From: a virus
DNA: 64,000 nucleotides
Virus record (IMG/VR): IMGVR_UViG_3300033145_000529
Span: 1-64,000 of that record
Reading direction: 5' to 3' (one strand)
Position numbers and translations under genes: made by a program. How positions within the stretch are numbered: position 1 is the stretch's first letter; every line of letters starts with the position of its first letter. Below the pieces are notes generated by a model, which was not told the origin of the DNA, ran no database searches, and saw only the letters and a program-made list of their open reading frames with translations. Positions 4,796 through 32,688 of this stretch are shown piece by piece.

Positions 4796-5089
4796 CTAAA
4801 TACTGTTGTAATTGTGCTGAGGTAACTCCCCAATCAAAATTCCATATTTATCTGCTTCACATGAACCCCAATTATATCTGCCACACACTTTGCATAACTC
4901 CTTACATTCTTTTAATGCTAAGAAATAGGGTTGTATCAAATGAAACCGTTCTGGTGTTAATTTAGACATAATGAGGACTTCACATTTCGTTGTGTAACAT
5001 TGAAACTTAACCTCACAGTTATTACAATGTTCATCGCAATAACCATCACCAAGCTCCTCACCACCTAATATGTAACGCACTATTCGCAT
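4796..5089 (-). CDS. Cys-module protein, 97 aa
   Basis: Start chosen at the ATG after GGAGAGGTA, overlapping the previous stop (TAATG). Carries the recurring module as CNNCEVKFQCYT with a further Cys three residues before and one five after, plus CKELCKVCG downstream. Probable metal or Fe-S binding protein. Function unknown. It is co-transcribed with another module carrier just upstream. Confidence 0.7.
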   Translation of the reverse strand: MRIVRYILGGEELGDGYCDEHCNNCEVKFQCYTTKCEVLIMSKLTPERFHLIQPYFLALKECKELCKVCGRYNWGSCEADKYGILIGELPQHNYNSI

Positions 5090-5403
5090 TACCTCTCCGT
5101 AAAACACTTGAACCTGTTCACGCAAGTTTCGCACTCCTCGCCCTGTAAAACACCTTCACAAATCCTCTTAATAGGTTTGTAATAATCCGTGCCCCACTCA
5201 GCAATCAGTTCTCTATTACCACCACCGCTTCCACCTGTTTTGTAGACACGAACAATATCTTTGCCACTTTCATCATCGTGGTAGCACTCAATTTTAGCTC
5301 CTGTACGCCAGCCTCGGATATGACCAGCAATTCCGCTATCCTTACTTCCGCCCCTTGTAGCTTCACCACGATCGCCTTGAATATTCCCATAAAAATGTGA
5401 CAT
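5089..5403 (-). CDS. MSHFYG-type phage protein fused to Cys module
   Basis: 104 aa. The N terminus (MSHFYGNIQGDRGEATRGG) belongs to a small family I recognise from many unrelated phages (MSHFYGxxxGxRGEATRxG), of unknown function. The C terminus is the local module CETCVNRFKCFT ending in ER. Start is at the ATG following GGGGAGGTAAAACA. The fusion shows that the module behaves as a mobile tag-like domain. Confidence 0.7.
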   Translation of the reverse strand: MSHFYGNIQGDRGEATRGGSKDSGIAGHIRGWRTGAKIECYHDDESGKDIVRVYKTGGSGGGNRELIAEWGTDYYKPIKRICEGVLQGEECETCVNRFKCFTER

Positions 5404-5407
5404 TGTT

Positions 5408-5524
5408 TTACCTCCCCATAGTACACAACAATCTTTGCAATTCTGGTGACAGTCCATCTATCCACCAACATTCAAGTCTGCCGTATGGTTCAAATCTAAC
5501 ATAAATGACATTGCCAGCAGGGTG
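5408..5524 (-). pseudogene. open frame lacking a start codon
   Basis: A 38-codon frame (includes IYVRFEPYGRLECWWIDG) runs between the in-frame TGA at 5527-5525 and a TAA placed exactly inside the spacer of the next ribosome site, the normal arrangement of real genes here. No ATG, GTG or TTG lies in frame. Probably an N-terminally broken gene, or one with an ATT start. Confidence 0.3.
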
Positions 5525-5531
5525 TCACTCT

Positions 5532-5639
5532 TCAATAGTCTTTGCTGTTTTCTGTATTCTTTTCCTCCGCTTTGGCTTCCCTCTCCTCTTCTTTCTCTGC
5601 CTCAGTAATTGCAGTTTTGAACCTTTCTTCGTAATCCAT
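5532..5639 (-). CDS. charged miniprotein, 35 aa
   Basis: Starts eight bases after the upstream stop and is almost entirely Glu/Lys/Ala, so a short helix or coiled coil. No recognisable family and only a weak ribosome site (TTAAGG). Kept because it fills the gap in an otherwise contiguous block. Confidence 0.35.
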   Translation of the reverse strand: MDYEERFKTAITEAEKEEEREAKAEEKNTENSKDY

Positions 5640-5646
5640 CCTTAAC

Positions 5647-5841
5647 TCAATCAAACTCTCCCCTTGCTACACACTGACGCAGGTGCTTAACTAGCTCTAT
5701 GTGTGCTTTGGTAGGTATTTCGTGACAACCAGTAGCACAAGCACACCTGTCTTTGCAAGCATCGCAATCTGTGTCAAAGGTATTACCTTTAGTAGCACGA
5801 CAGTCCCTTACTTTCTTGGGTAGCAATTCATATCCTTCCAT
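5647..5841 (-). CDS. Cys-rich protein with variant Cys module
   Basis: 64 aa containing CDACKDRCACATGC, a variant of the recurrent module in which the aromatic positions are replaced by extra cysteines, giving five Cys in fourteen residues. It is the first gene after the promoter at 5862-5890. Metal or cluster binding is likely; role unknown. Confidence 0.6.
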   Translation of the reverse strand: MEGYELLPKKVRDCRATKGNTFDTDCDACKDRCACATGCHEIPTKAHIELVKHLRQCVARGEFD

Positions 5842-5861
5842 TCTTTCACCTCACTATAACC

Positions 5862-5890
5862 ATTGTATCATAAGCCCCAATTAAAGTCAA
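5862..5890 (-). promoter_or_regulatory. sigma-70-like promoter
   Basis: Minus strand TTGACT, 17-bp spacer, TACAAT, with extended TG. The spacer carries GGC at positions 9-11 followed by TTATG, as in the other promoters of this phage. It would drive the 5,841-to-87 block. Confidence 0.7.
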
Positions 5891-5991
5891 ACCTTATTTG
5901 TGGCTACACCAATCTCTCTGTGTCCATTATTTCGGGGAATAGCCTGCCTAACTACCCATCACAAATGATATAATCCCCCCTAACATCTTCT

Positions 5992-6141
5992 TTAATTTTC
6001 GTTTTCATGCAATTTTTTTTCGAGAAATTCAAGTCGCTCTTTATCGTATGGCGACATAGTGATAGCACCTAATTGCTCCACAATGCTAAAGTATTTTTTA
6101 TAGATTATCACCATTTCTAGCAAAATTTCTTCTTTATTCAT
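5992..6141 (-). CDS. hypothetical protein, 49 aa
   Basis: Helical protein (EEILLEMVIIYKKYFSIVEQL) with GGAAAGGGAAG before the ATG. The ATG overlaps the stop of the 30-aa gene upstream (TAATG), so it is coupled. No family recognised. Confidence 0.55.
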   Translation of the reverse strand: MNKEEILLEMVIIYKKYFSIVEQLGAITMSPYDKERLEFLEKKLHENEN

Positions 6142-6233
6142 TACCACTTCCCTTTCCTTAATTGCTTGTTTTCCAACCCAAGAAGTCTAATCAGCTCGTT
6201 GCCCCTTTTAATCTCATCTATTTCTCTTCTCAT
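6141..6233 (-). CDS. coupled miniprotein, 30 aa
   Basis: A 30-codon ORF whose ATG overlaps the preceding stop (ATGA) and whose own stop overlaps the next ATG (TAATG). The product is basic and helical (MRREIDEIKRGNELIRLLGL). The overlaps at both ends are the main argument that it is translated. Confidence 0.45.
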   Translation of the reverse strand: MRREIDEIKRGNELIRLLGLENKQLRKGKW

Positions 6234-6703
6234 CGCCAGAACCTCTTAGTTACCTTTGGATTTCTGTGAAGCCTTTGAGGGTCTTGTTGATACACTTGGC
6301 TTTCCGTTGCTATCTCATGCTGTGATGTATAGCACTTAAACCTATCTGGACAAGTTCCACAGATACTCGTAACTTCCAAGTTAAGTTTACTTCTTATCTC
6401 TGAGTGTGGCTTTTCTCTGCATTCCTTACAAAGCGGAACTATAAAATTACAGGTATTAACACCCTCAAAAGTTAGACGTTCTATTGTAGTAGGAAAGAGA
6501 TTTGTGCCTTTAACTAACCCACAACAAGCACACAATACTAGACGATTTTTTTCTCTTTCTTTTTTGCGACAAGAGGTACAGATAGGTTTTATTATAATAT
6601 GGTCACCTTCGGTCATTGTATATGGTCTTACTGTGTCATGTGTAAAACCGCAAAAACTACAATAACCTATTTTATGTTTAATAATATGAGGTTTAACTTC
6701 CAT
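6230..6703 (-). CDS. zinc-finger protein with Cys module,157 aa
   Basis: Start set at ATG 6703, where the protein begins with a CSFC...CTSC zinc site followed by CACC...CKEC and then the module CGTCPDRFKCYT. The upstream in-frame ATG at 6742 lies in what looks like nuclease debris in another frame. Three consecutive Cys pairs suggest a multi-zinc DNA- or RNA-binding protein. Function unknown. Confidence 0.65.
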   Translation of the reverse strand: MEVKPHIIKHKIGYCSFCGFTHDTVRPYTMTEGDHIIIKPICTSCRKKEREKNRLVLCACCGLVKGTNLFPTTIERLTFEGVNTCNFIVPLCKECREKPHSEIRSKLNLEVTSICGTCPDRFKCYTSQHEIATESQVYQQDPQRLHRNPKVTKRFWR

Positions 6704-6830
6704 GTTCCCACTTATAACCGCCTGCTGTCTTACGCTTGCCATTGCATACCATATAAAGATTATTTATTCTAGTTTGTCTACTTGCTTCCTTTCAAAGCCT
6801 CACTTATGTGTTTCCTATGCTCTCATTAGT
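6693..6830 (-). pseudogene. homing endonuclease debris (NUMOD fragments)
   Basis: Two frames here read as DNA-binding repeats of homing endonucleases. One is a NUMOD3-like helix (HISEALKGSK). The other is a NUMOD1-like piece with ASRQTRIN and, further on, GKRKTAGGYKWE. They are joined by a frame change and have no nuclease domain. Remnant of a lost HNH or GIY-YIG mobile gene. Confidence 0.5.
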
Positions 6831-6838
6831 CAGATGTT

Positions 6839-7318
6839 TCAACTTTTACACCTTGTGGTAAGGCAACGAAATCTATTATCGCATTTCGCACAGTTTTCGC
6901 TTTCCCCAAGTGGAATAGCCTCAATAGTTATTCTCAAAAATCTTTCAGTATTGTGCTTTAAGATTTCACTTACATCCCTAAATTCATCGTAAGCTATGCG
7001 AGACATGCCAGGATGTTTACTATTAAAATTTGGACAACCTAGATACTGAAAAATCTCACGAATAGTGCCGTGTTCATCACGGTCAACTGCATCACCAACA
7101 TCTTCCGCCAAAAATCCCTCAATTTCAATAGGAAGTGAAGCAACAAGTTGGCTTTCTACGCATAGCTTCTTTATCTTAATTTGCCTTAACTGCTCCCTCT
7201 CCTCAACATAGAGATTTTTAGCAGAACCATCCGAAATTTGCCCCTCAATCGCCTTTATCTCAATTTGCATTTCATTGCGTAGTTTGATAGTTTGCTCTCT
7301 GGTCTTATTCTCTTGCAT
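6839..7318 (-). CDS. coiled-coil protein ending in Cys module
   Basis: 159 aa. The first 55 residues are a charged coiled-coil-like helix, the middle is unrecognised, and the C terminus is the recurrent module CAKCDNRFRCLTT followed by another Cys. Module-at-the-end architecture is shared with the genes at 5089 and 15214. Function unknown. Confidence 0.65.
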   Translation of the reverse strand: MQENKTREQTIKLRNEMQIEIKAIEGQISDGSAKNLYVEEREQLRQIKIKKLCVESQLVASLPIEIEGFLAEDVGDAVDRDEHGTIREIFQYLGCPNFNSKHPGMSRIAYDEFRDVSEILKHNTERFLRITIEAIPLGESENCAKCDNRFRCLTTRCKS

Positions 7319-7401
7319 TGATATATCCCTTGCACTCTAAAAATATCTTGGGCGCGACCTCTTTTGAGTATAGGCAATTAGTCGTGTCCTTTATCTTTCA
7401 T
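7305..7401 (-). pseudogene. small gene interrupted by one extra base
   Basis: ATG overlaps the upstream stop (ATGA) and follows GGAGGAAGG, but the frame stops after seven codons. Dropping one G from AAAGGACACG restores a 31-residue protein (DTTNCLYSKEVAPKIF...) that ends just inside the next gene, the usual spacing. A single-base indel is the simplest explanation. Confidence 0.35.
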
Positions 7402-7649
7402 TTTCCTTCCTCCTTTTCAGGCAACGGACACCAAGATGGCATTATATGAATGTTTCTAATTATCCTTAACCCATGGGTTTTAAGGGGGCTTTTAAGACAC
7501 CTGTTAAGGGAGGTTATTGAATACAATCCTAGTATCTCTGTAGTTTTTGGTTCTAACCGCCAACCACATTCAATACATTTACTGACATCGTAAACTTCCT
7601 TCACATACTCACCATCAATGTGATGGTTTATGCTACAAATCTTAGTCAT
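7398..7649 (-). CDS. hypothetical protein, 83 aa, possible zinc site
   Basis: Contains CIECGW near residue 25 and a C-terminal WCPLPE, so it may bind a metal. Otherwise unrecognised. It lies just downstream of the VWA/metallopeptidase gene and may be in the same transcript. Confidence 0.55.
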   Translation of the reverse strand: MTKICSINHHIDGEYVKEVYDVSKCIECGWRLEPKTTEILGLYSITSLNRCLKSPLKTHGLRIIRNIHIMPSWCPLPEKEEGK

Positions 7650-7673
7650 TTTCCTCGTTTTGTTGTACCTAAT

Positions 7674-10427
7674 TCAATCATTTTCCATCACAATAATTTT
7701 GCCGAGCTTAGGTGACCATCCCCCAGTATAGTGCTCAGGCGTGACAACCCATATCGTGGGGCATGGTATTGAACGAGGATAAGTACCAGCACCATCCGTA
7801 CAGTATATGATACCATCCACTTTTTGCTTCAATTTGAAGCTCTCACCGTTACCATTCTTATAAACACCCTTTTTCACGAACTTAAACACAGGAGTAAAGT
7901 CAGTTCCACCATAGCCATACCTCTTAATACCTTGACCTGTTGGTGGTTTTCTCTTGTAGTCTTTAACATGAGTAATATCGGCATCGCATTCCACATGAGT
8001 TATACTAACACCTGCGGAGAACATTGCCCCAATTTCCTTCCAGAACATAGCAAATTCTTTATCGTCCACACTACCTGAGCTATCTGTTGCCACCACAAAG
8101 TGTGCTTTCCGCATAACTTTATAGCCTGGGAATACTACAGGGAAGCGTCTGTTCATTCTCTTGCGAGTGCTTACAAAGTGAGAGAACTGGCGAAAACCAT
8201 AGAACCTGCGTAATTCAGATTTCCAAGTTATAGTCTTGTGGGCAAGACACGCATCAACAAGACCTTTCAACCATGCTGGCATATACCCCTGAGACTTCTC
8301 ATTAACCTTATGAACAGCTTTCTTGACCATCTCCTTGATTTTCTCATGTGCCATTTCTTTGTTATCACTATCTGCCGCCCAAGCTTCGTGGTTATCCATA
8401 GGCATTGGTATCATTATTCCATTAACTTCTACACCGCAACCACTACCAGCTCTAGGAGACTCAGTTTTAGACTCAGCTTTCTGTTGACTCTTTCCGCCAG
8501 TGCTATCACCTTCATCTTCTTTTTGTTCGTAGCTCCCATCACCACCACCTTTGCCTTTTTGCTGGTTTTGCCCTTGACCTTCTTGATTGCCAAGACTATT
8601 CTGGTCTTTGGCTTGCCCTTGACCAGAACCTTGCTGTCCAGAGCCTTGCTGTCCTTGTTTACCTTGTCCACCTTGCCCACTTTGTTGACCCTGTTGACCA
8701 GCTTGCCCCTTACCCTTACCAGCCTGCCCCTCCTGACCTTCTCTCATTTGCTCTTTTGCTGCCTTCTCTTGTTGGTTAGTAATTTTACTCCCAATCTCTA
8801 TTACGTATTTTGGAATTTTACTCCATAAAATATCATAATAAACCTCAGAAGCTTTCTCACTTTGAAGGTCAACCTTTTTGTTATCAATCCTAAAATTATG
8901 AATGTCAAGGGGTTCAAAAACATTAACTTTCGGATTAAGTTTCATATTACACATCGGACACCAAGTGGGAAATTGCCCTGATGGTGTTTTCCTCACAAAT
9001 ATATTACACTCTGGACACATTCCACCATATGGCAATCCCTTAATATACTGATTTATGGCAAGGTCAGAATTGTGTGTAATAGCATTAGCTACCAAGAAAG
9101 TATGGTCAGGAGTAGTAATATTATATACTTTGCCAACATAATGTTCCTTCTTTGGTTTTTCTGTTAATAAAGAAGCAACATAATCACCCAAATCAACAAA
9201 ATTTCTTCCCCCGTTTTCGGTATCAATTAAAGTATAATACTTACCATAATCATGAATAGCAAAGTATTTGCCAATTTTAAACCCAAGAAGTTGTAATTGT
9301 AACGCTAAAATTTTGCTTACTGTTTTTACTTGCTTATTAGATTGGCAATAATCTCCTGCTTCATAACCTTCAAAGAAGCTAGAAATAATTTCTTTGTTTA
9401 CATTGTTCATTATAAAGTCAGGGATTTGTTTATTATGTGCTCCTTTACCACACCAACTATTGAAAGCTCTTGCTAAAATTGGAGAACGAGTATCAGCATG
9501 TTTCTTATTGTAATAAACTTTAGTTTTTATTCCACAGTTTCTCTCAACAATATCTGCCCATTTTTCTACTGGGGTAGCATCTTTAAAAGAGAATTCTGGA
9601 GTTCCCTCCCCTGAACCTTCAGCCACATAATATCCCAATGCCCAAGCAGTTTCTTTGTTGATTGGAAATTCTTTTATATGCCAGTTGTGAGCAGACTTGA
9701 TATTTTTAACATATTTTGTCATATCTAATGTAGGGCTATCAAAAGTTCCTTTAATTTTCGGAATAAGAACTGCTAATTTAGAATATTTACCACTTCTTAT
9801 TGTATGAGCTAATTTCCAGTAGGGAGCCGAGAATGTATCATCTCCTCTTGCCCTATTCTTATTCAATCGTTTAACAAGTAATATTGGGTGATTGTAAGTA
9901 GTTTCAATAGGTAACATCCCTCTTGGATTAAAGGAATAAATGTTACCATCATAATCATAATTAGCTATTGCTTTAATTGATTGTAAAACACCTTTGCCAA
10001 ACACAAAATCTCCGCCTTGTAAATCTTTGATAGGTTTATTATCTCCCAATAAGATAGTTTCTGGTTTTAGGCAAGCAATGTTCCACACATAATGATTACG
10101 ATTTTCTATTCGTAAAAGATGCTTATTAAGAATGTGCAAAATTTCATGTTCCAAAACAGCAATCTTTTCCTCTTGGGTTAACCCCCACGAATGTTGAGCA
10201 GGTTTACTCTTGTCGTAATCGCCACTATTATAAAACATATTATTGATAAACAAATGAGGTTGAAGTTCATTGCTTATCATAACGGCAAGCGTTCTAATTA
10301 CTTGACCTGCCCCCACATTAGTTTTATGGTCAACACTATGTCTACGGAATTGTTGGAGTAAATGTCCGTAGAAGTGCTTATGTTGAAGCAAAAGTTCTAT
10401 CACTTCAAGCTCTATAAGTTCCTTCAT
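7674..10427 (-). CDS. metallopeptidase-like/VWA protein with intein
   Basis: 917-aa precursor. The N-terminal domain has HEILH (residues 94-98), the HExxH zinc site of the DUF2201 metallopeptidase-like family. A 335-aa intein interrupts it at 119-453. The host part resumes with SDLAINQYI and a CPEC...CPMC pair, then a long Gly/Gln-rich linker and a C-terminal VWA-like domain with DSSGS (782-786), GGTDFTP and CTDG, the MIDAS elements. Without the intein it is 582 aa. It is followed on the strand by a MoxR ATPase gene, the classic partner: such pairs act as metal-dependent chaperone or remodelling machines. The target in this phage is unknown. Confidence 0.85.
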   Translation of the reverse strand: MKELIELEVIELLLQHKHFYGHLLQQFRRHSVDHKTNVGAGQVIRTLAVMISNELQPHLFINNMFYNSGDYDKSKPAQHSWGLTQEEKIAVLEHEILHILNKHLLRIENRNHYVWNIACLKPETILLGDNKPIKDLQGGDFVFGKGVLQSIKAIANYDYDGNIYSFNPRGMLPIETTYNHPILLVKRLNKNRARGDDTFSAPYWKLAHTIRSGKYSKLAVLIPKIKGTFDSPTLDMTKYVKNIKSAHNWHIKEFPINKETAWALGYYVAEGSGEGTPEFSFKDATPVEKWADIVERNCGIKTKVYYNKKHADTRSPILARAFNSWCGKGAHNKQIPDFIMNNVNKEIISSFFEGYEAGDYCQSNKQVKTVSKILALQLQLLGFKIGKYFAIHDYGKYYTLIDTENGGRNFVDLGDYVASLLTEKPKKEHYVGKVYNITTPDHTFLVANAITHNSDLAINQYIKGLPYGGMCPECNIFVRKTPSGQFPTWCPMCNMKLNPKVNVFEPLDIHNFRIDNKKVDLQSEKASEVYYDILWSKIPKYVIEIGSKITNQQEKAAKEQMREGQEGQAGKGKGQAGQQGQQSGQGGQGKQGQQGSGQQGSGQGQAKDQNSLGNQEGQGQNQQKGKGGGDGSYEQKEDEGDSTGGKSQQKAESKTESPRAGSGCGVEVNGIMIPMPMDNHEAWAADSDNKEMAHEKIKEMVKKAVHKVNEKSQGYMPAWLKGLVDACLAHKTITWKSELRRFYGFRQFSHFVSTRKRMNRRFPVVFPGYKVMRKAHFVVATDSSGSVDDKEFAMFWKEIGAMFSAGVSITHVECDADITHVKDYKRKPPTGQGIKRYGYGGTDFTPVFKFVKKGVYKNGNGESFKLKQKVDGIIYCTDGAGTYPRSIPCPTIWVVTPEHYTGGWSPKLGKIIVMEND
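9069..10073 (-). mobile_element. LAGLIDADG intein in the metallopeptidase domain
   Basis: Residues 119-453 of the 917-aa protein form an intein of 335 aa. It has Cys1 (CLKPETILLG, block A), TTYNHPILL (block B with the TxxH-type His), two LAGLIDADG-like helices (ALGYYVAEGSG and FFEGYEAGD), then YNITTPDHTFLV (block F) and the terminal ANAITHN before Ser+1. Splicing would rejoin VWNIA to SDLAIN, the conserved strand after HExxH. Insertion at a catalytic-site core is typical of inteins. The endonuclease looks intact. Confidence 0.92.
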
Positions 10428-14207: not shown

Positions 14208-14876
14208 CTAACTTAGCTTGCATACCAAATACCTTAAATATTTTGTATCAATCTTTTTATTATCTAATGACCTTTTAATCACAGATGTTTTAGCTGTTGC
14301 CCAACTATCGTCTCTTACTGATGCCAAATCTTCCGTGAGTAATTTCCAGATTGTTCCGCCCAATCTACAGTATCCAAATCCGTTTTTAGTTTCATAACTT
14401 AACCCAACTTTACCCATCTTCTCTCTCAGATTTTGAAGCTGTTCCAATTGCTCATCACGCTTTTTTACCACTACTTTTACTACAGCTTCTTCTTTTTTAG
14501 TTTCGGGGCTTTTCCCTATGGGAGGAATATGTTCACCATCATCTACATTACCAGTCCAACAATTGAAAACACATGGACACCCCTCACATACTACTTCATA
14601 GCCAGTATCCATGCTTCCTGACAATCTTGACCGACAATCTTGATGAAGGATAATGTTTGGTTGAGGGCGGTCTGCGTTCCATCCTGCATATCCTCTACTT
14701 AACCCTTTGTTTCTGCCTCTCTTTATCTTAGTTGGAAGCAAGTGGCAATTACTAGCATGACAGTAAGGACAAATCATTTTATCTAATATAAAATGTGTGA
14801 AGGCAAACTTCCTAAACTTATCACGCTCAGATAAGGTAGTAAAGTCTTTGCCACATTTCAAGCATCTAAATTTCGT
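14208..14876 (-). CDS. zinc-ribbon and Cys-module protein, apparent ACG start
   Basis: The frame opens with KFRCLKCGKDF, a zinc-knuckle that is cut in half if the TTG at 14861 is used. An ACG at 14876, eight bases after GGAG, gives a complete N terminus. Further Cys/His pairs (CPYCHASNC) and the module CEGCPCVFNCWT (variant with an extra Cys) follow, then a charged linker and a C-terminal domain. 222 aa from ACG. Function unknown; likely nucleic-acid binding. Confidence 0.6.
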   Translation of the reverse strand, partial: TKFRCLKCGKDFTTLSERDKFRKFAFTHFILDKMICPYCHASNCHLLPTKIKRGRNKGLSRGYAGWNADRPQPNIILHQDCRSRLSGSMDTGYEVVCEGCPCVFNCWTGNVDDGEHIPPIGKSPETKKEEAVVKVVVKKRDEQLEQLQNLREKMGKVGLSYETKNGFGYCRLGGTIWKLLTEDLASVRDDSWATAKTSVIKRSLDNKKIDTKYLRYLVCKLS

Positions 14877-15217
14877 AGCCTTTTCTCCTTTCCCTCTTTC
14901 TCAACATAAATCCCTGTCAAACTCTGGTCTACACCTTTACTTGCAAGATACCATTGGATTATCTCACCGAGAGTAGGTCTTTCCGATGGAAGTGACAATT
15001 TAAGCAAATCATCATTGAAGTTTATACGCAGAGCATCTCCAGTATAGCAACGGAATTTTAGTTTACACTTATCACAAGCTTTGGTACTCTGCCCCAAACA
15101 TCTATTATCTAAAAGTATTTCATACTTATCAAATACAAGAATTATTTCTTTTCCTGGCTTTTCTTTGAGTTCCCTAACCTTAATAGTAATGTTATCGCTA
15201 CTGTCTAATCGTATCAT
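14858..15217 (-). CDS. Cys-module protein, 119 aa
   Basis: Unrecognised apart from the central module CDKCKLKFRCYT. Its ATG overlaps the stop of the next Cys-module gene upstream (ATGA), so three module proteins in a row are translationally linked to the DNA ligase. Confidence 0.65.
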   Translation of the reverse strand: MIRLDSSDNITIKVRELKEKPGKEIILVFDKYEILLDNRCLGQSTKACDKCKLKFRCYTGDALRINFNDDLLKLSLPSERPTLGEIIQWYLASKGVDQSLTGIYVEKEGKEKRLRNLDA

Positions 15218-15453
15218 TGCTCTCTGCCCTCTTTATTCTCTCTCTCTGTCCAACACTTAAATCTAATTATACAATTATCACAGAATATTTGGTCTACTTT
15301 GCCAGCTATACCACTCCAATTACAAGTAAAAAACTTAGAAGTTTCACCGCATCTAGGACACCTATCAAAGTCATGTTCCGCTAGAGCAAACAAATGGTCA
15401 CAATCTGTGCATACAAATGCCGCAGGGTATTGACCATAACCATGCCGTATCAT
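15214..15453 (-). CDS. zinc ribbon fused to Cys module, 79 aa
   Basis: CTDC...CPRC zinc ribbon in the first half and CDNCIIRFKCWT near the end, twenty residues after CNW. The canonical form of the module appears here. ATG overlaps the stop of the DNA ligase gene (ATGA). Confidence 0.7.
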   Translation of the reverse strand: MIRHGYGQYPAAFVCTDCDHLFALAEHDFDRCPRCGETSKFFTCNWSGIAGKVDQIFCDNCIIRFKCWTERENKEGREQ

Positions 15454-16379: not shown

Positions 16380-16660
16380 TGAAGTTCCCCCAGTATATTC
16401 GGAAAACATAGCACTTCTATTGCCACTAATCTGAAACTCCCAAAATCACCCTTGAACCAATTCCTACAGTTGCCACTATCCTCATTACCACATTCGCATT
16501 TTGGTGGTAATAACACACTATAAGGATAGAAGCACAACTTTCTGCCGCATTTGTTACACTTAACAGTAACGTAATCTTCGGGTATCAAATCCCTTGCTTT
16601 TAGTATTTTGCGGGCTTTTTGTGCTTTCGTGCTCAACTTCCACAATACTCGTTCCAGCAC
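16376..16660 (-). CDS. zinc-ribbon protein, 94 aa, GTG start
   Basis: Begins at GTG overlapping the RtcB stop. Contains CNKCGRKLCF and CECGNEDSGNC, a likely zinc ribbon. Unrecognised otherwise. Sits between RtcB and DNA ligase in a coupled chain. Confidence 0.6.
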   Translation of the reverse strand: MLERVLWKLSTKAQKARKILKARDLIPEDYVTVKCNKCGRKLCFYPYSVLLPPKCECGNEDSGNCRNWFKGDFGSFRLVAIEVLCFPNILGELQ

Positions 16661-17846
16661 TACTCTCCACCTGCCTTAAAGTTATATACTGATTTCATAA
16701 AGAACTCAACATCAACTGTCTCCCCGATAGCCTCAACAATTGTGTTCTTATCTTTGTATGCCATCGGTGCTTCATCTATGGTGTTAATTGTTGCGGTAGT
16801 GGTATAGATACCTTCCATTTGACTTTGGAACTCGTCAAGGTCTAGCTGTCTCTTGGCTTGACTTCTGGACAGTAATCTCCCTGCCCCATGCGGTGCAGAG
16901 CAGTTCCATTTATTACTGCCCTTACCAATACCTATCATAACTCCATCACGCATATTAAAGGGAATTACTAATCGTTCCCCATCGTGTGCCGAGACCGCAC
17001 CTTTGCGAATTATCTTGTCCTCAAAGTTTATGTAATTGTGAATTGTGTGGATACCACCTTCTGCCTTTACAAAAGGTGAAATAGCAGGGGAGATTTTTTC
17101 CTTGAAGAAGCTATACATTAAAAGCCCTGCCATTACATTTCTATTCAGGCTGGCATATTCTTGAGCAATCTTCATGTCTGCCAGATACTCCTCACCACCC
17201 ATATCCATAGGTAGATACTCTAAACCTTTGTAAGCATCTGCCCCATAAACATTCTCTTGAGTAGTTCTTTAGCTTTGTTTTGGTGGAAGTTAGCAACTCG
17301 TAACCCGAAATTCCTGCTACCAGAATGGATTAAGAGCCAATATTGACCATTATCATCTTGGTCAACCTCAATGAAGTGATTTCCACCACCGAGAGTGCCG
17401 ATTGAACCTATGACCTTGCTTTCCTCTTGATTTAAGTCCTGAGCAAGTGCCACAACCTTCTTACGGAATTTGCTGTCAAACACAAGATGTGGTTTTACAC
17501 CATTTGCCATTCTCTCACCGATACTTCTTATGTTAAAGCCACTTGGAATGTGTGTCTTTATAAAATGGTCTAGGTGTTCAAAATCAATGGTTGTTACCTC
17601 AAGAGGATAAGCATTTACGCCACAACCAATATCTACACCCACCACATTCGGTATGATGTAGTCATTCATCTTCATAGTGAAACCGATACAACTTCCAGCA
17701 CCAGCATGAGCATCTGCCATGATTGCTATGTGTGTCTTAGCAAACGCAGGATGATTGAGAAACGAGTAAATCTGGCTAATGGTTATCTCGTCAAGCTCAT
17801 CAATCATTACATTGGCTGAATTGTACTTACCTTTATATGTAATCAA
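16660..17846 (-). CDS. rtcB: RtcB RNA ligase, split by a -1 frameshift
   Basis: GTP- and Mn-dependent 3'-phosphate RNA ligase. The first half (TTG start at 17846) has MADAHAGAGSCIGF, VDIGCGVNAY and GTLGGGNHFIE; the second has HNYINFED, RKGAVSAHDGE and PHGAGRLLSRSQAK with the guanylated His. Together they give a full-length protein of about 395 aa. The two frames meet at a GGGG run (17241-17244, CCCC on the plus strand). One more G, or a -1 slip there, reads GADAYKGLEYLPMDMGG and restores the family sequence. It could be a sequencing error, a real mutation, or programmed slippage. Confidence 0.88.
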
Positions 17847-18121
17847 TCTATCACCTCAAGATAATCCTTGCCATATTTACGATATGTTCGGAACTTTGCC
17901 TTCTTGAGCAGTTTTAATATTTGTTCTGGTTTTATAAGACAATAAAGAGATAATTTAAGCTCACCATCAACCCACGCTGCCATATTGTTATAGCTAGTCC
18001 AGCAACCACCAATATTCTCACCAACCACTATTGGGCATATCAACTGTTTAGATGTAAAGCAATTAAATCGCTTTTCGCAGGTATCACAGTTGTTTCCCTC
18101 TAATGGTTTAGGTGCTTTCAT
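17843..18121 (-). CDS. Cys-module protein preceding rtcB
   Basis: 92 aa with CDTCEKRFNCFT near the N terminus and a basic helical C terminus. Its stop overlaps the TTG start of rtcB, so the two are coupled. The linkage of the module to an RNA repair gene is the best functional hint available. Confidence 0.65.
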   Translation of the reverse strand: MKAPKPLEGNNCDTCEKRFNCFTSKQLICPIVVGENIGGCWTSYNNMAAWVDGELKLSLYCLIKPEQILKLLKKAKFRTYRKYGKDYLEVID

Positions 18122-26398: not shown

Positions 26399-26406
26399 AT
26401 CTTACC

Positions 26407-27257: not shown

Positions 27258-27289
27258 TTCTAGCTCCTTCCCATATTCTCACTACCTAT

Positions 27290-27574: not shown

Positions 27575-27714
27575 CGTCTAGTTCTACGTAGGCTTGTATA
27601 GTAGCGTTGTCCAACGGTGGAAGAAAGTTTTACAAAACGCCATTCTAACCGTTCTGTTCAGCTTCACGGCAAGCATAGTCAAGTAAAATATGCCACATAC
27701 GCTCTGTTCACTAT

Positions 27715-27825: not shown

Positions 27826-27854
27826 ATATGTTAAGCTTGGCTAAAAGAAAACAC

Positions 27855-27883
27855 TTGACAAATTTTTGGCATTATGTTATGAT
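27855..27883 (+). promoter_or_regulatory. first rightward promoter
   Basis: TTGACA, 17-bp spacer containing TTGGCATTATG, TATGAT. The expected start of transcription is only a few bases before the ATG at 27893, so the mRNA would be nearly leaderless. Confidence 0.78.
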
Positions 27884-27892
27884 CTCAATAGA

Positions 27893-28213
27893 ATGAATAA
27901 GGTAAATAACAACAACACTCCGAGTGAAGTCTATATACTCCACTTTGATAAGCCTTACTGGAATAGGGCTCGTCATTATGTAGGATATACCACCATAGGG
28001 GCTGATAATAGAATTAAGAAGCACCGAAATGGTACTGGCTCACTTCTTGTCAATTACGCTCATAATAAGAAGGGCATAGAATTTCAAACAGGGCTTATTG
28101 AACAATTTGCTACTAGACCATTAGCACGATGGCGTGAAAGACAGCTAAAACGGGAGGGGCATCTCAGTCGTCATTGTGAGATATGTCAGAGAAGGCGAAA
28201 GGATAATGGCTAA
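27893..28213 (+). CDS. GIY-YIG-like endonuclease
   Basis: 106 aa from ATG 27893. VYILHFDKPYWN followed by HYVGYTTIGADNRIKKHRNG carries the GIY-YIG hallmark (V-Y-I and Y-V-G), the conserved His-Arg and, further on, a CEICQ pair. The short single-domain form resembles the predicted GIY-YIG nucleases found across phages and bacteria. No intron host gene is near, so it could be free-standing or have a regulatory or host-takeover use. Confidence 0.7.
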   Translation: MNKVNNNNTPSEVYILHFDKPYWNRARHYVGYTTIGADNRIKKHRNGTGSLLVNYAHNKKGIEFQTGLIEQFATRPLARWRERQLKREGHLSRHCEICQRRRKDNG

Positions 28214-28298
28214 ACAAACACGCTTCACTAAATCAAGAGCGTTTCTACGGCAATGTAGGGTCGCTAATCGTAAAAGAATTAAAGCCTTAATTAACTAA
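28206..28298 (+). CDS. very basic miniprotein, 30 aa
   Basis: AAAGGATA precedes the ATG, which overlaps the end of the GIY-YIG gene. Eleven Lys/Arg in 30 residues suggest nucleic-acid binding. No family recognised. Confidence 0.5.
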   Translation: MAKQTRFTKSRAFLRQCRVANRKRIKALIN

Positions 28299-28311
28299 AG
28301 AAAGGAGACTG

Positions 28312-28464
28312 ATGGAATTTGTGTATGAGATGAGCCAAGACAAAGTGACCAAAGGGGCTATTAGGTATGCTGATAATGCGGGGCACAGCATCTACCTCCG
28401 TAAAGAGGAAGCGGCTAAGCTTGGTAATCCTCAATCGGTTGAAGTTACAATAGCACCGAAGTAA
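28312..28464 (+). CDS. small conserved protein, 50 aa
   Basis: After AAAGGAGACTG. The pattern FVYEMSQDKVTKGAIRYADN...SIYLRKEEAAKLGNPQSVEV is familiar from small proteins in phages, plasmids and archaea (xVxYExxKxTKxTVRYxE...IYLRKEEL). No function is assigned. Confidence 0.6.
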   Translation: MEFVYEMSQDKVTKGAIRYADNAGHSIYLRKEEAAKLGNPQSVEVTIAPK

Positions 28465-28517
28465 GCCATAAGGGAGACTTGCTATCGGTGACTGTAATCT
28501 AATGAAAGGAGTTGGCT

Positions 28518-28736
28518 ATGAATAATGTGGATGGAGCTTGTGCTTGCTGTGGCAACAGTACCCCATATACGGGAAGGCTTCCTATTATCTGTCCAACATG
28601 TCGTGAGGCACGGAAGCAGATGGTAACTGGTGGCAATATGGCACACTTGGTTTCTGGTGGTAATTTCAATATACGGCTTCTACTTCCAGATAGTGAGTTG
28701 ATGCCGAAGCCAAAAACGGCAGCAGATTTTCGGTAA
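28518..28736 (+). CDS. zinc-ribbon small protein, 72 aa
   Basis: ATG at 28518 follows AAAGGAGTTGGCT. CACCGNS and CPTCREARK form one zinc knuckle; the rest is unstructured and basic. A hairpin 14 bases beyond the stop may end the transcript. Confidence 0.6.
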   Translation: MNNVDGACACCGNSTPYTGRLPIICPTCREARKQMVTGGNMAHLVSGGNFNIRLLLPDSELMPKPKTAADFR

Positions 28737-28749
28737 GTAGCCGAAACAA

Positions 28750-28780
28750 GGGGTGAAGTGTTAAGATGGCATTTCACCCC
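28750..28780 (+). terminator. hairpin after the first rightward operon
   Basis: GGGGTGAA (28750-28757) pairs with TTCACCCC (28773-28780) across a 15-base loop. There is no T run, so it is either a weak terminator or an mRNA end stabiliser. Confidence 0.5.
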
Positions 28781-28791
28781 TGTTCTAGTCT

Positions 28792-28894
28792 TGGCATTTT
28801 TGCCACCATAGAAAACCACATATTTTTAATTTTGGCAACGTCACGGCAATTTGGGCATTTTTGCCGTGTGTAAAATAATGGCATTTTTGCCATT
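28792..28894. repeat. second cluster of GGC-N6-GCC inverted repeats
   Basis: Three sites with the identical core GGC-ATTTTT-GCC at 28793-28804, 28854-28865 and 28880-28891; the last extends to AATGGCA/TGCCATT. Followed 75 bases later by a promoter whose spacer again holds TTGGCAT. Same element as upstream of the first rightward promoter. Confidence 0.7.
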
Positions 28895-28967
28895 TATTTT
28901 AGGGCTTGGCTTTTATTTATAGTTTGTGTTAGAAGAGCATTTAATGGAAGTATGCCCACGAAATAAC

Positions 28968-28996
28968 TTGACAAACCACTTGGCATGTGCTAAGAT
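28968..28996 (+). promoter_or_regulatory. rightward promoter
   Basis: TTGACA, 17-bp spacer with TTGGCATGTG, TAAGAT. Drives the 73-aa gene 40 bases downstream. Confidence 0.78.
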
Positions 28997-29036
28997 CAAG
29001 ACAGTGGAATAATAATAGAGAAAGGACAGATGAGCC

Positions 29037-29258
29037 ATGAGTAAACGGAAAGACCGAGAACGGGCAAAGTCTGGTAGTGTTTGGAGAGATGGTGGACTAG
29101 TCTCCAAAGAAGAGTATTACGCTAGCCACCCGACTCGTGAGATGCGGGCGGAACAGGAAGCTAAGGAAAAAGCTGAAATTTGGGCATCACGTAAACCTGT
29201 ACCTGATGAACTTGACCCAAAGGACACTGATGCTGTTATGGCTGAACGTAATCGCTAA
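29037..29258 (+). CDS. hypothetical charged protein, 73 aa
   Basis: After GAAAGGACAGATGAGCC. Highly charged, no recognised family (SKRKDRERAKSGSVWRDGG). Overlaps the following small gene. Confidence 0.55.
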   Translation: MSKRKDRERAKSGSVWRDGGLVSKEEYYASHPTREMRAEQEAKEKAEIWASRKPVPDELDPKDTDAVMAERNR

Positions 29259-29340
29259 CTGCACAGTCTGTCATAAGCATCATATCAGGACATCAAAGGT
29301 TGGCAGAGAACACACTAATTTTTACTTAGAGGAGGCATAA
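29230..29340 (+). CDS. small Cys/His protein, 36 aa
   Basis: ATG after AAAGGACACTG, out of frame with the 73-aa gene it overlaps. Contains NCTVCHKHH, a compact metal-binding motif. Function unknown. Confidence 0.45.
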   Translation: MLLWLNVIANCTVCHKHHIRTSKVGREHTNFYLEEA

Positions 29341-29390
29341 TATAATAAGGTAACGCTCCGCTTTCTCTGTGCCTTGTTCAGGTTAGTGGC

Positions 29391-29453
29391 TGCTGTTCAG
29401 CCTTGTGGCAAATGGCAAAGTTTTGCTGTTCAGCCTTGTGGCAATTTTGCCAC
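29391..29453. repeat. 21-bp direct repeat plus GGC-N6-GCC site
   Basis: The 21-bp sequence beginning TGCTGTTCAGCC and ending GTGGCAA occurs at 29391-29411 and 29424-29444. The second copy runs into TGGC-AATTTT-GCCA (core 29440-29451), another member of the inverted-repeat family. Confidence 0.7.
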
Positions 29454-29551
29454 TTTACATAACTAGCTTTATTACCAGTGGACGTTTGCAAGGGTATAGT
29501 ATAGGACTAAAGTATTTTATTAAAATAATGTAAAATAAACGCTACCAGACG

Positions 29552-29580
29552 TTGACAAAGCTGAAATAATCCTTTAAGAT
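29552..29580 (+). promoter_or_regulatory. rightward promoter without the GGC spacer element
   Basis: TTGACA, 17-bp spacer, TAAGAT, but no GGC and no extended -10. It would give the 204-aa gene a structured leader of about 180 bases. Confidence 0.65.
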
Positions 29581-29640
29581 CTAGGTAGATGATAAAAGAA
29601 TAAGCTACAGTGTAAAGCATAAAGAAGCACTACAAAGCTA

Positions 29641-29745
29641 TTAGCGGAAACGCTAAATTCAGTTTGCTATACTGATATTAAGCTAGTAAATCACTACTAG
29701 GTGAAAGCAATACAATGTAATAGGATAATACCGCTATAAGCGGTA
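29641..29745 (+). ncRNA. chain of four hairpins in a long leader
   Basis: TTAGCG-GAAA-CGCTAA (29641-29656), TCAGT-N7-ACTGA (29659-29675), CTAGTA-N6-TACTAG (29683-29700) and TACCGCT-ATA-AGCGGTA (29729-29745). The first has a stable GNRA tetraloop. It could be a regulatory leader or a separate small RNA; no known class recognised. Confidence 0.4.
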
Positions 29746-29770
29746 TAAAATAAAATTGTGAGGTTATACA

Positions 29771-30385
29771 GTGGTAGACAATAACACTAAAACTGGTATA
29801 TCACCTAGTACGCTAGGACGTGAGCGTAAACGCTATAGTGAGATGTCCGAACTTGATGGTGTGACCAAAAAGCAAGTAGACGCTCAAATGCGACTTGACG
29901 CTAAACGCTACGCTAAAAAACTAAATAAGGATATTAGTTTTGAGGACTATAAAACTGATATTGAGACACTACCACAGCGAAGCGGTACTGGTAAGCGTGA
30001 GGCGGACAAGGTAACAAGGGATGCATTGATTGTGGAAACTCAAGAAGTTAATGCGGTCAATAACCTAGCTATCCTATCACACAGGGGCGAGGTTGAACTG
30101 GTTGACGCTCAAAAGGTTGAAGCGTTTGACGCTATGGGAGAAAAAGCTGATGTTTTAGCATCCCACTTGCATACAGCTTTTGATGGTGTGAAAGCGTTAA
30201 CTATGATACACGCTCCAGATAACCTATTGTGTGTCCATATAGCAGGATGGGAAGACGGAAGTAAAAATCTACGCTTCCAATATGCACCCCGTAAAATACC
30301 TATCACTAAACGCTCAGGGTATAGGGATGATAGCTTTAATGCACCTATCTATCAATTACCGATTGCTACAAAGGATAAAAAGTGA
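29771..30385 (+). CDS. hypothetical protein, 204 aa
   Basis: GTG start with GAGG upstream. The first half is charged and helical (KKQVDAQMRLDAKRYAKKLN), the second alpha/beta (LTMIHAPDNLLCVHIAGWEDG). No family recognised. Its DNA uses CGCT codons unusually often, unlike its neighbours. Confidence 0.65.
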   Translation: MVDNNTKTGISPSTLGRERKRYSEMSELDGVTKKQVDAQMRLDAKRYAKKLNKDISFEDYKTDIETLPQRSGTGKREADKVTRDALIVETQEVNAVNNLAILSHRGEVELVDAQKVEAFDAMGEKADVLASHLHTAFDGVKALTMIHAPDNLLCVHIAGWEDGSKNLRFQYAPRKIPITKRSGYRDDSFNAPIYQLPIATKDKK

Positions 30386-30462
30386 TAATAGCATTGTGGG
30401 TAATACTAGGAGTGCTTAGTGGTGCAGTTATTAAGTTATTCTGTATCCTATACAATCGGTAG
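30382..30462 (+). CDS. single-pass membrane peptide, 26 aa
   Basis: GTG overlaps the stop of the 204-aa gene (GTGA). Almost wholly hydrophobic (ALWVILGVLSGAVIKLFCIL). Probably a membrane miniprotein; function unknown. Confidence 0.45.
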   Translation: MIIALWVILGVLSGAVIKLFCILYNR

Positions 30463-30478
30463 ACTACACTGATAGTCT

Positions 30479-30509
30479 GCTAGTCTTAACAGTATAAAAT
30501 AAGACTAGC
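30479..30509. terminator. perfect 10-bp inverted repeat
   Basis: GCTAGTCTTA and TAAGACTAGC flank an 11-base loop containing TATAAAA. Lies between two miniprotein genes. Terminator without a T run, or a regulator site. Confidence 0.5.
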
Positions 30510-30535
30510 ACCATTAAATCAAGTGAGGTAATATA

Positions 30536-30670
30536 ATGTTACTAACAGCTATTGAGTATACTGCACTATTGTGTGATTTATTGCTTGGTAAAAATACTTA
30601 TTACCTTAATGAGAAGGTATTATACCAAAACGCAAACTTAAAAGAACTATACGAAGAGAGGGTAAATTGA
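30536..30670 (+). CDS. small acidic/tyrosine-rich protein, 44 aa
   Basis: ATG after GTGAGGTAATATA. Helical with many Leu and Tyr (YTALLCDLLLG, YEERVN end). No family recognised. Confidence 0.5.
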   Translation: MLLTAIEYTALLCDLLLGKNTYYLNEKVLYQNANLKELYEERVN

Positions 30671-30671
30671 T

Positions 30672-30779
30672 ATGATAGATATAGCACTAACAGGATTATT
30701 CCTGTCATCATTGGCAGGGATTATTGCGGCTGGTATATGTATCAGCATTTTAGTTATTCTACATAGTCAAACAAGGTAA
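30672..30779 (+). CDS. single-pass membrane peptide, 35 aa
   Basis: GAGAGGG precedes the ATG. A hydrophobic stretch fills residues 4-29 and a short polar tail follows. Membrane miniprotein, role unknown. Confidence 0.5.
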   Translation: MIDIALTGLFLSSLAGIIAAGICISILVILHSQTR

Positions 30780-30785
30780 GCAGGC

Positions 30786-30821
30786 AGGGGTTGACACAGC
30801 GTTAACCCCTACCCCCCCCCC
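30786..30821 (+). terminator. hairpin followed by a C10 run
   Basis: AGGGGTT (30786-30792) pairs with AACCCCT (30804-30810) and is followed by ten C (30812-30821). It ends a block of miniprotein genes. The long C run is unusual and prone to slippage. The rest of 30,822-30,974 holds no gene. Confidence 0.45.
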
Positions 30822-30974
30822 TACTTTACATAAAAACACGCCCTTTCAGCATACTTCGCTAGAGTGTGTTGGATCTATTAGATTGGGCAAAATTTCAAAT
30901 TTGCCTGTTCAAAAATGTCGGGTTTATCTTTCATAACATTGTGCTAATTTCATTGAATTTGACCATGAAAAGGC

Positions 30975-31003
30975 TTGACAACTCCGTGTTCATGTGATAT
31001 AAT
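30975..31003 (+). promoter_or_regulatory. rightward promoter
   Basis: TTGACA, 17-bp spacer ending CATGTGA, TATAAT; full consensus with TG extended -10 but TTC instead of GGC in the spacer. Starts the Cys-module gene 19 bases on. Confidence 0.8.
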
Positions 31004-31021
31004 ATATATAGAGGTAGTTGA

Positions 31022-31210
31022 ATGATTAGGTTAGAGAAACCTCTAAGATTTATATGTGACAAGATTTGTGATAATTGCTTGATTCGGTTCAAGTGTTGGA
31101 CTCAACGTGGAACTAAACAGCTTTCTGTCGAAGAATTCCATAAGATTGCTGAGAAGAGTAAGTGTAATGGTTGCGTGGGGTCTGAGTTTTATCTAGGATG
31201 TGCAAATTGA
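31022..31210 (+). CDS. Cys-module protein, right-arm copy
   Basis: 62 aa following GAGGTAGTTGA. Holds the canonical module CDNCLIRFKCWT preceded by another Cys, and CNGCVG further on. It shows that the family is not limited to the left arm. Function unknown. Confidence 0.7.
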   Translation: MIRLEKPLRFICDKICDNCLIRFKCWTQRGTKQLSVEEFHKIAEKSKCNGCVGSEFYLGCAN

Positions 31211-31608
31211 AAACTATTTATAGTACTGGAGCATTTGGAGAACCATATCGTATTGAAGTAAGTGATGCCTTATTAATGGAGGTTATAACTGCTCAACGTC
31301 AGCTTAAAATGTTACCTTGGAACGGTGAGATGTTCTTGCCTGTTCCTATTATTCCTCTAAGCATAGATAAAGAGCTTAATGCTGAGATTGTGGTAGGTAA
31401 GACTTCGGTTTCTATTTGTATCGAAGGTCCAGTGGGAAGAGAAATTATGTTAGACGGAATTGATGATTTACTAACTGTCCCAGATATTTACGTGAGTAAA
31501 GACTTTGAACTCACTCTTTCTGAGCACATGTTCAGCTTAACACCACGTGACGTAGATATGATAGCTACTTGGAAGGGTCTTAAACAGAAAAAATTGGAAG
31601 ACATGTAA
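31198..31608 (+). CDS. hypothetical protein, 136 aa
   Basis: ATG overlaps the end of the Cys-module gene by 13 bases. Beta-rich sequence (EIVVGKTSVSICIEG) without recognised family. Confidence 0.6.
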   Translation: MCKLKTIYSTGAFGEPYRIEVSDALLMEVITAQRQLKMLPWNGEMFLPVPIIPLSIDKELNAEIVVGKTSVSICIEGPVGREIMLDGIDDLLTVPDIYVSKDFELTLSEHMFSLTPRDVDMIATWKGLKQKKLEDM

Positions 31609-31637
31609 AATATTTCGATTTCGTGCGTAGTTTAAAC

Positions 31638-31675
31638 GGTCTAATAAGCATAAATCATTAGTGATCGATCAGGGA
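31638..31675 (+). promoter_or_regulatory. two-block element, copy 1
   Basis: GGTCTAAT (31638-31645), twelve bases, then TTAGTGATCGATCAGGGA (31658-31675). Both blocks recur, with thirteen bases between, at 55,594-55,632. TGATCGATCA is a palindrome. Each copy lies shortly before a gene start, so a phage-specific late promoter is the favoured reading. Confidence 0.55.
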
Positions 31676-31688
31676 GTAAGTTTGCAAA

Positions 31689-32025
31689 ATGGACTTTTAT
31701 AAATTTCAAGGATACTTTTAAAGAGTATCAACAACGTTTCGGGCTTACTAGATATAAAGTGTATTTTAAGTTTGAACCCTTAGAGAACTCTTTTGCTGAC
31801 CTTACTGTTAACCAAAATGATATGGTAGCAACGGTTACACTAAATAGTCAGTTATCTGAGAAAAGTGAACCTTTTAAAGATGTCAAGAGAAGTGCTAAAC
31901 ATGAAGCTCTACATCTTTTATTGTCAAGACTAGAACACAGGGTACATTCCAAGTATGTAGCAAATGAAGAGATATATGAATCTGTTGAGGAGCTAGTATT
32001 TAAGCTTGAGGAACTAATAATGTAA
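31689..32025 (+). CDS. metallopeptidase-like small protein, frame broken near start
   Basis: The protein frame (FKDTFKEYQQRFGLTRYKVY...) is open from about 31,650 but has no ATG. An ATG at 31689 joins it if one T is removed from TTTT. From there it is about 111 aa with KHEALHLLL (HExxH), the mark of small zinc peptidase-like phage proteins. Either a one-base error or a non-ATG start (ATA). The stop lies two bases before the tmRNA. Confidence 0.55.
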
Positions 32026-32027
32026 TT

Positions 32028-32379
32028 GGGGGTGCGTGGTTTCGACAGGGTAATTACGCTATATATAAGCAGGTAGTCTTTGGTGAAAAGACTTAAACAG
32101 CACCGAAAAAATAACTGACGAAGTTAAATTATTTGTAGTCCTCGAAGAAGGATTACTCTTTCTCGATGAGAGCGTTGAGTCTCCCGTGAAAGACCGTTTC
32201 TCAACAGAACCAGTTGAAGCTCTAGCAACTGTCTAAGAAATTAGAAAGAATTTAGAGTTACGTTCCCTCCACCCTTCTCGGTTCAGTTCAGGAGAACGTA
32301 AGCTTAGGAACTGAGTAAACCTGTAGAAAGTATTTAGTAGGTTATTTTGGACAGGGAGTTCGACCCTCCCTCACCTCCA
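32028..32379 (+). ncRNA. ssrA: tmRNA (ribosome rescue)
   Basis: Starts GGGGGTG and contains GCGTGGTTTCGACAGGG, the conserved tmRNA 5' end. The 3' end has GGACAGGGAGTTCGACCCTCCC (T arm) and CACCTCC, which closes the 7-bp acceptor stem with GGGGGTG; CCA is not encoded. PK1 is AGTCTTT/AAAGACT with GGTG pairing to CACC (32,101). Twelve bases on, GAC at 32117 is the expected resume codon. No canonical ALAA tag follows: the frame is open for 39 codons to TAA at 32,234, ending VEALATV. 352 nt is normal length. Confidence 0.9.
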
Positions 32380-32451
32380 CAGTCAGTAGATGACAATAGA
32401 AAATTCTGTCGTTCACCTACAAATATTGACATGATGACGACTATATATATT

Positions 32452-32688
32452 ATGAAAAAATCAAGACAAATAATAATACAAGATGATTGTGAAGAACAGC
32501 ATGAGTCGTTCTGGTGTGACGCTACCAATTGCGATAACTGTATGCTGAGGTTTCAGTGCTTTACCTCTCGTTCTGAAACAATTATAGTAACTTTTCCACT
32601 AGAAGTTATAGATGACAAAATAAAAGAAGTTCACGCACAAAAATGGAGGTTAAGGGATGGGAGCTCTAGACCTAGAGCGAACCGATAA
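32452..32688 (+). CDS. Cys-module protein next to tmRNA
   Basis: 78 aa from ATG 32452 (ATG 32431 also possible). Module CDNCMLRFQCFT preceded by another Cys; the rest is unrecognised. Transcription probably continues from the tmRNA. Confidence 0.6.
   Translation: MKKSRQIIIQDDCEEQHESFWCDATNCDNCMLRFQCFTSRSETIIVTFPLEVIDDKIKEVHAQKWRLRDGSSRPRANR

Follow-up and report, generated by a model that had tools for sequence, protein, structure and literature searches.

The first 64,000 bases of a 148,197-base phage record (IMG/VR record IMGVR_UViG_3300033145_000529, bases 1-64000, referred to as the window) encode a series of unrelated proteins that share a short cysteine motif. The motif, here called the tag, comprises 12 residues with the consensus C-x2-C-x2-[R/K]-[F/Y]-x-C-[aromatic]-[T/S], and proteins that contain it are called carriers (Table 1). 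An earlier note on this DNA had listed nine such tags, and all are present, in frame, in the genes it named. Among the variants it added, those at 14208 and 5647 are found in open reading frames (ORFs); the ORF at 1024 has the C-x2-C-x5-C spacing alone (CEQCEVNHKC) and is not counted as a carrier because it lacks R-F and T. The recurrence was correctly seen. The number of carriers, given as about ten, was too low, as about a third of the copies had been noticed.

Frequency and statistics of the tag

A degenerate DNA pattern, in which only the three Cys and the Thr are fixed, matches the whole record 34 times, against 0 matches for the reversed control pattern. The R/K-F/Y pair and the aromatic residue are present in nearly all 34 matches, though the pattern left these positions free. 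On the protein level, the motif C-x2-C-x2-[RK]-[FYW]-x-C-x-[TS] is found in 31 predicted proteins of the record, compared to a mean of 0.01 in 200 proteomes with residues shuffled within each protein, well above what was to be expected of Cys-rich proteins. For the four largest related contigs the respective numbers are 61, 46, 26 and 44 proteins (at most 0.005 in shuffles). Chance occurrence in Cys-rich proteins is ruled out by the shuffles and the reversed patterns, and a scan of prokaryotic genomes (see below) returned only about the chance number. The search motif already demanded positions 7, 8 and 12, and a fairer measure is therefore the share of the consensus among proteins with plain C-x2-C-x5-C spacing: the full consensus is found in 30 of 37 such predicted proteins of this genome. 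Besides the ligands, the residues common to unrelated carriers are R/K7, F/Y8, an aromatic residue at position 11 (82%) and T/S12, Ser being permitted at position 12 besides Thr.

Synonymous codon choice at the Cys, Arg and Thr positions of the tag is free, with a third-base identity of the Cys codons of 0.62 in the tag and 0.60 in the background. The tag is therefore a protein motif, and a dispersed DNA repeat is ruled out as its origin. We note that genes were called greedily as the longest open frame, so that some gene starts are uncertain.

Table 1. Carriers of the tag and other features. Coordinates refer to the window unless stated otherwise.
Location	Strand	Tag	Tag position	Features
4796..5134	-	CNNCEVKFQCYT	4991-5026	fourth Cys 4 residues before tag, fixed in the family
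5089..5403	-	CETCVNRFKCFT	5098-5133	phrog_5927 (MSHFYG) domain at residues 1-70, C-terminal extension
5647..5841	-	CDACKDRCACAT	5731-5766	variant tag, F8 replaced by C
6230..6742	-	CGTCPDRFKCYT	6326-6361	zinc-ribbon-like; nine more invariant Cys in the family (odd number)
6839..7318	-	CAKCDNRFRCLT	6857-6892	tag near C-terminus; sole further invariant Cys of the family 48 residues (56 alignment columns) upstream of tag
14208..14861	-	CEGCPCVFNCWT	14553-14588	variant tag; degenerate tags in two full-length orthologues
14858..15217	-	CDKCKLKFRCYT	15041-15076	a single further invariant Cys, located 8 residues before tag
15214..15453	-	CDNCIIRFKCWT	15247-15282	N-terminal part zinc-ribbon-like
17843..18121	-	CDTCEKRFNCFT	18053-18088	tag near N-terminus
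31022..31210	+	CDNCLIRFKCWT	31067-31102	
32347..32688	+	CDNCMLRFQCFT	32530-32565	start uncertain, 32452 possible; family has one further invariant Cys 5 residues before tag, in four phages
record 134711-135442 (outside window)		CKNCKQRFYCFR		uracil-DNA glycosylase (UDG), family-4-type; variant tag
record 146192-147625 (L013)				SWIM-type carrier with intein-like insert
contig G005, 212-658 (L149)				L7/L12-type carrier (PF00542); ClpS-like similarity also found by Foldseek
7674-10427	-			917-residue protein, C-terminal part vWA/metallopeptidase-like, apparent intein
16660-17846	-			rtcB, two adjacent ORFs
36271-38313				B12-dependent (class II) ribonucleotide reductase
41-55 kb				ORFs resembling sugar-nucleotide and glycosyl-transfer enzymes
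49194-50336				radical-SAM protein
record 92329-93072 (outside window)				Cas4-like exonuclease of the phage
record 131101-132573 (L012)				cluster of leader-bearing small proteins

Distribution within one phage lineage

In two scans of viral contigs, a small number of large contigs show the motif repeatedly. Eight such contigs have 65, 47, 25, 41, 33, 20, 15 and 4 pattern matches, respectively, and the reversed pattern has 0. The tag-rich contigs with a terminase in their gene set share 70-88% terminase identity with this record; two partial contigs, G005 and G007, showed no terminase in the gene set. A terminase of at least 65% identity is found in about 30 contigs overall, and the annotated phage collection yields a single terminase match with 24% identity. 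Small contigs of the clade that were recruited through the terminase mostly have no tag or one to three, as expected if they mainly cover the late block.

Carriers constitute 9-24% of the genes in this lineage. In the record and its four largest relatives the tag is spread over the non-virion regions, with no or almost no copies in one long block. This block lies at about 33-87 kb in the present record and includes the genes for terminase and portal as well as other conserved late genes. The coupling of carriers to rtcB, DNA ligase or the tmRNA that had been noted is not a general trait: the carriers are scattered through the non-virion regions, and ARAGORN finds neither a tRNA nor a tmRNA within the window. 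The view of the tag as a phage-wide element and not a single enzyme is borne out, as the search of the whole genome and of phage contigs yields many carriers with fixed spacing, in unrelated proteins, at variable positions and throughout one clade.

Beyond this lineage, a scan of about 85,000 prokaryotic genomes (257 billion bases) with a specific form of the pattern gives 33 matches, most of them outside credible ORFs and in number about equal to a chance expectation estimated by hand. The remaining single viral matches are mostly chance-like short open frames or Cas4-type exonucleases. Two bacterial contigs from metagenome-assembled genomes (L117 and L119) have convincing tags, but were rejected as evidence for a host because both are short and phage-like.

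Carrier families and the tag as an extension

When the tag is masked, grouping of the 288 carriers of nine contigs yields 167-179 groups according to the threshold, and 48 of these have more than one member. The tag is found at N-terminal, central or C-terminal positions. Recognisable carriers include zinc-ribbon-like proteins, a SWIM-type protein outside the window (called by its CxC..CxH pattern; the Pfam SWIM model matches only with E 0.033) and, in related phages, a protein with a domain of the L7/L12 C-terminal type (PF00542, E 1.3e-11). For the UDG, the tag is the end of a C-terminal extension of about 42 residues in three phages, and three orthologues with 46-60% identity end before the tag. 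Likewise, the homologues of the phrog_5927 domain in two mycobacteriophages (70 and 84 residues) end without it. Judged by these alignments, the tag is an add-on extension which relatives of the UDG and of the phrog_5927 domain do without. A single divergent gene family is ruled out by the tag-masked comparison and by the different known domains.

The tags track their families by descent. Similarity between tags within a genome is barely above the similarity between genomes, with the exception of G001, where W11 and a C-terminal placement dominate; recent duplication is an equally good reason for this likeness as homogenisation.

A fourth cysteine provided by the carrier

All of the 278 distinct carriers have a Cys outside the tag. 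The number expected to lack one is 50.5 at the Cys rate of noncarriers and 15.1 at the higher rate of the carriers themselves; if starts are placed at the first ATG instead, 1 of 279 carriers (a short ORF) would be without a fourth Cys. In 207 of the 278 carriers a Cys is located 2-16 residues before the tag, compared to 67 expected. Among the 31 families with at least 3 members, just one additional invariant Cys is present in 13, and an odd number of them in 23. The place of the fourth Cys is fixed in most families and differs between them, with the positions -2, -4, -5, -8, -10, -12, -13, -44, -56 and +37 (in alignment columns).

The L7/L12-type family illustrates this variability. In three phages the fourth Cys is about 70 residues upstream of the tag; in two other phages this Cys is gone and a new one is found four residues before the tag. 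An AlphaFold model of such a carrier is confident for the domain, with L7/L12 as the best matches in the Protein Data Bank (PDB). The early Cys starts the first strand, and the tag, itself modelled with low confidence, follows just after the last strand. In the L7/L12 fold, the start of the first strand and the end of the last strand are neighbours. Tag and fourth Cys are also jointly missing from relatives, among them the UDG orthologues and a Cys-free paralogue, which ends where the fourth Cys and the tag would start.

A universal fourth Cys at a family-specific place indicates that the tag provides three ligands of a four-Cys site which the carrier completes. The simplest reading of these alignments is a four-ligand metal site built 3+1. 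The tag and the carrier Cys very probably bind a metal; the earlier idea of a cluster-binding or docking tag is thus strongly supported in its first part by the invariable fourth Cys, and docking is a possible role whose grade is discussed below.

Probable identity of the metal and comparison with known systems

The earlier note had considered a SPASM-type Fe-S site or a zinc knuckle. The spacing comes nearest to that of the [4Fe-4S] sites of the Cas4 and WhiB type and not to SPASM, and the features of a zinc knuckle are absent. In Cas4, the site consists of three C-terminal Cys and one N-terminal Cys (PMC3466216). WhiB-type proteins bind [4Fe-4S] with CxnCx2Cx5C and dock to sigma in a cluster-dependent manner (PMC7363131).

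The Cas4/AddB exonucleases share with the carriers a C-terminal C-x2-C-x5-C and one remote Cys, and R/K7 and W/Y11 are usual. The common form in Cas4-type phage exonucleases is C-x-[FY]-C-x-[FY]-[KR]-x-x-C-[WY], which fits positions 7 and 11 of the tag, and four of these enzymes have the full C-x2-C-x2-R-F-x-C-W-T. The tag differs by having no nuclease domain, a fixed F8 and T/S12, and a variable place of the fourth Cys; no Pfam or PHROGs family of RecB-like nuclease kind is among the carriers' matches listed. A Cas4-like exonuclease is encoded separately by the phage itself, and R-F and T are missing from its site. WhiB-like (Wbl) proteins are small, and their CxnCx2Cx5C spacing is also found in the carriers, but the latter are unrelated domains and not one fold; homology to PF02467 (WhiB) is limited to one of 33 carriers at E 0.035, with no match above the Pfam cut-off. 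The radical-SAM genes encode proteins separate from the carriers, and no SPASM domain is among the carriers' matches listed. Four carriers weakly match the Cys cluster of PF13751 (DDE_Tnp_1_6) across the tag stretch (E 0.0033-0.037), but the best score is 18.2 bits compared to a curated cut-off of 25.1, and the carriers have no transposase domain. Zinc ribbons and knuckles of the CPxCG type are likewise short units built on CxxC, which occur promiscuously in unrelated proteins; the tag, in contrast, contains a single CxxC, does not have the character of CPxCG and shows a fixed R-F..[aromatic]-T.

The tag falls outside the Cas4, WhiB, SPASM, PF13751 and zinc-knuckle groups on at least one tested feature each. 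The earlier note had taken it as a candidate for an undescribed system, and no described counterpart was found: searches of the carriers against Pfam and PHROGs give no model for the tag, the tag profile finds nothing significant among solved structures in the PDB (best E 2.7), and a literature search with motif strings and topic words returned no description of it. The tag is best placed among the promiscuous four-cysteine modules, and may well be more than that.

From spacing and analogy to these systems, the site probably holds an Fe-S centre rather than zinc. A C4 zinc site of the knuckle type, serving nucleic-acid or protein binding, is unlikely, although four Cys, the R and F in the loop and the zinc-ribbon-like parts of several carriers would suit it. 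Gly after CxxC is rare in tags (1.1%) but is seen in 31% of the remaining CxxC pairs of these proteomes, and position 2 is occupied by Asp, Glu or Asn where a zinc knuckle usually has Pro. The count of missing Cys gives no sign that His freely substitutes for the fourth Cys, and known [4Fe-4S] sites are spaced as C-x2-C-x5-C.

Possible purpose of the tag

That a single lineage places the tag on dozens of its non-virion proteins is suggestive of a common handle. The tag would act as a portable half-site of a metal centre, made of three Cys of its own and one Cys of the carrier. The bound centre would most likely be a [4Fe-4S] cluster of the Cas4/WhiB kind, loaded by the iron-sulphur machinery of the host, with R7, F8, the aromatic residue 11 and T12 shaping a turn and a helix around it. 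Every carrier would thereby obtain the same small cluster-locked knob, which could be the common handle of many non-virion proteins, most likely for attachment to one shared partner in the infected cell. The docking of WhiB to sigma offers, by analogy, a precedent for cluster-dependent docking (PMC7363131). We hold this explanation as a whole to be tentative, and the preference for a common handle over a structural staple to fall just short of an even call; the confidences overlap, since the question of the metal and the question of the purpose are separate.

Several observations weigh against this explanation. No candidate partner was identified, and a search for sigma-70 region 4 as a phage-encoded partner found none. 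Outside G001, tags of one genome are barely more alike than tags of different genomes, and thus show no sign of a co-evolving receptor. These phages encode no Fe-S carrier of the PF01521 type (SufA/IscA). Structure prediction gave a confident L7/L12-type domain but a weak tag, and a pLDDT of 54 for the 6839..7318 family. The shared R/K7, F/Y8, aromatic 11 and T/S12 may constitute a common surface or a mere need of the mini-fold, and a structural role would equally preserve R-F..[aromatic]-T.

This last point leads to the main rival, namely an Fe-S or other metal mini-fold that fastens a loop or tail onto the rest of the protein, with the consensus dictated by the fold and with no common partner. 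The fourth ligand is indeed supplied by the body of the carrier and is sometimes distant: in the L7/L12-type carrier, the Cys at the start of the first strand could come together with the tag that follows the last one. Cas4-type enzymes, whose site is built into their own fold, also share some of the non-ligand consensus, and the tags are inherited along with their families. We nevertheless regard such a staple as rather unlikely, as it leaves unexplained why the same sequence is found on 9-24% of the genes of one lineage, and neither on its virion proteins nor in almost all other phages, and why homologues of the UDG and of the phrog_5927 domain manage without it. A switch that ties the activity of many accessory proteins to the oxygen or iron state of the cell, or to nitric oxide (NO), is improbable. 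NO and O2 act on the clusters of WhiB-type proteins, which then lose their partner (PMC7363131). Such a role would fit a labile site in which one ligand is exposed, but the genomes give no specific pointer to it.

Two further explanations have little to recommend them. The four Cys might be the substrate of a modifying enzyme, for example for a radical-SAM thioether or another crosslink; radical-SAM proteins are present in several of the phages, and two crosslinks could arise from four cooperating Cys. This is very improbable, and radical-SAM modification is ruled out as a general explanation by G002, which has 47 pattern matches and no radical-SAM match. Scarcely credible is an artefact of ancestry, in which all carriers descend by ancient duplication from a single gene and have kept only the tag in recognisable form, or in which a DNA repeat encodes the tag. 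G001 does have runs of short adjoining carriers, some of them interrelated, with the tag at the very C-terminus; as a general explanation, however, it is contradicted by the free synonymous codons, the different known domains and the varying placement of the tag within the carriers.

Other features of these genomes

A second recurrent element is an N-terminal leader, M-K-[IVT]-R-x-G-F-V-S-N-S-S-S-S-[SM]-[FY], found on 17 small proteins that form one cluster per genome, in this record as well as in G001, G003, G004, G005 and G007. Two leader-bearing proteins also have the Cys tag. A literature search found no mention of the leader string. The two rtcB ORFs of the window together match intact single ORFs of G001, G004 and G006, and the split may be genuine or stem from misassembly. 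The insert of the SWIM-type carrier is missing from its orthologues in five related contigs; the Pfam models LAGLIDADG_3 and Intein_splicing match one carrier. The apparent intein of the 917-residue protein resembles the SWIM-type insert (28% identity). The ribonucleotide reductase is conserved across the clade. The ORFs resembling sugar-nucleotide and glycosyl-transfer enzymes, a likeness judged by eye only, are located beside the terminase and portal genes, and the same block contains the radical-SAM protein listed in Table 1.

Implications

If the handle is real, dozens of unrelated accessory phage proteins would be governed through one partner. Such a virus-wide system, with the half-site on 9-24% of the genes and a knob that is recognisable only once the Cys of the carrier completes the Fe-S cluster, would recruit or control these proteins together; we put it forward even more tentatively than the explanation as a whole. 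Four-cysteine chemistry with C-x2-C-x5-C is conventional, but its portable use, as a unit of 12 residues that a single virus attaches to dozens of unrelated proteins, is unmatched in the libraries and literature searched. One assay based on the tag would inform about some 170 families and with them about many phage proteins of unassigned function. The carriers also constitute a natural experiment, in which a metal site is completed by a wandering fourth ligand, and raise the question whether Fe-S centres may serve as generic docking elements.

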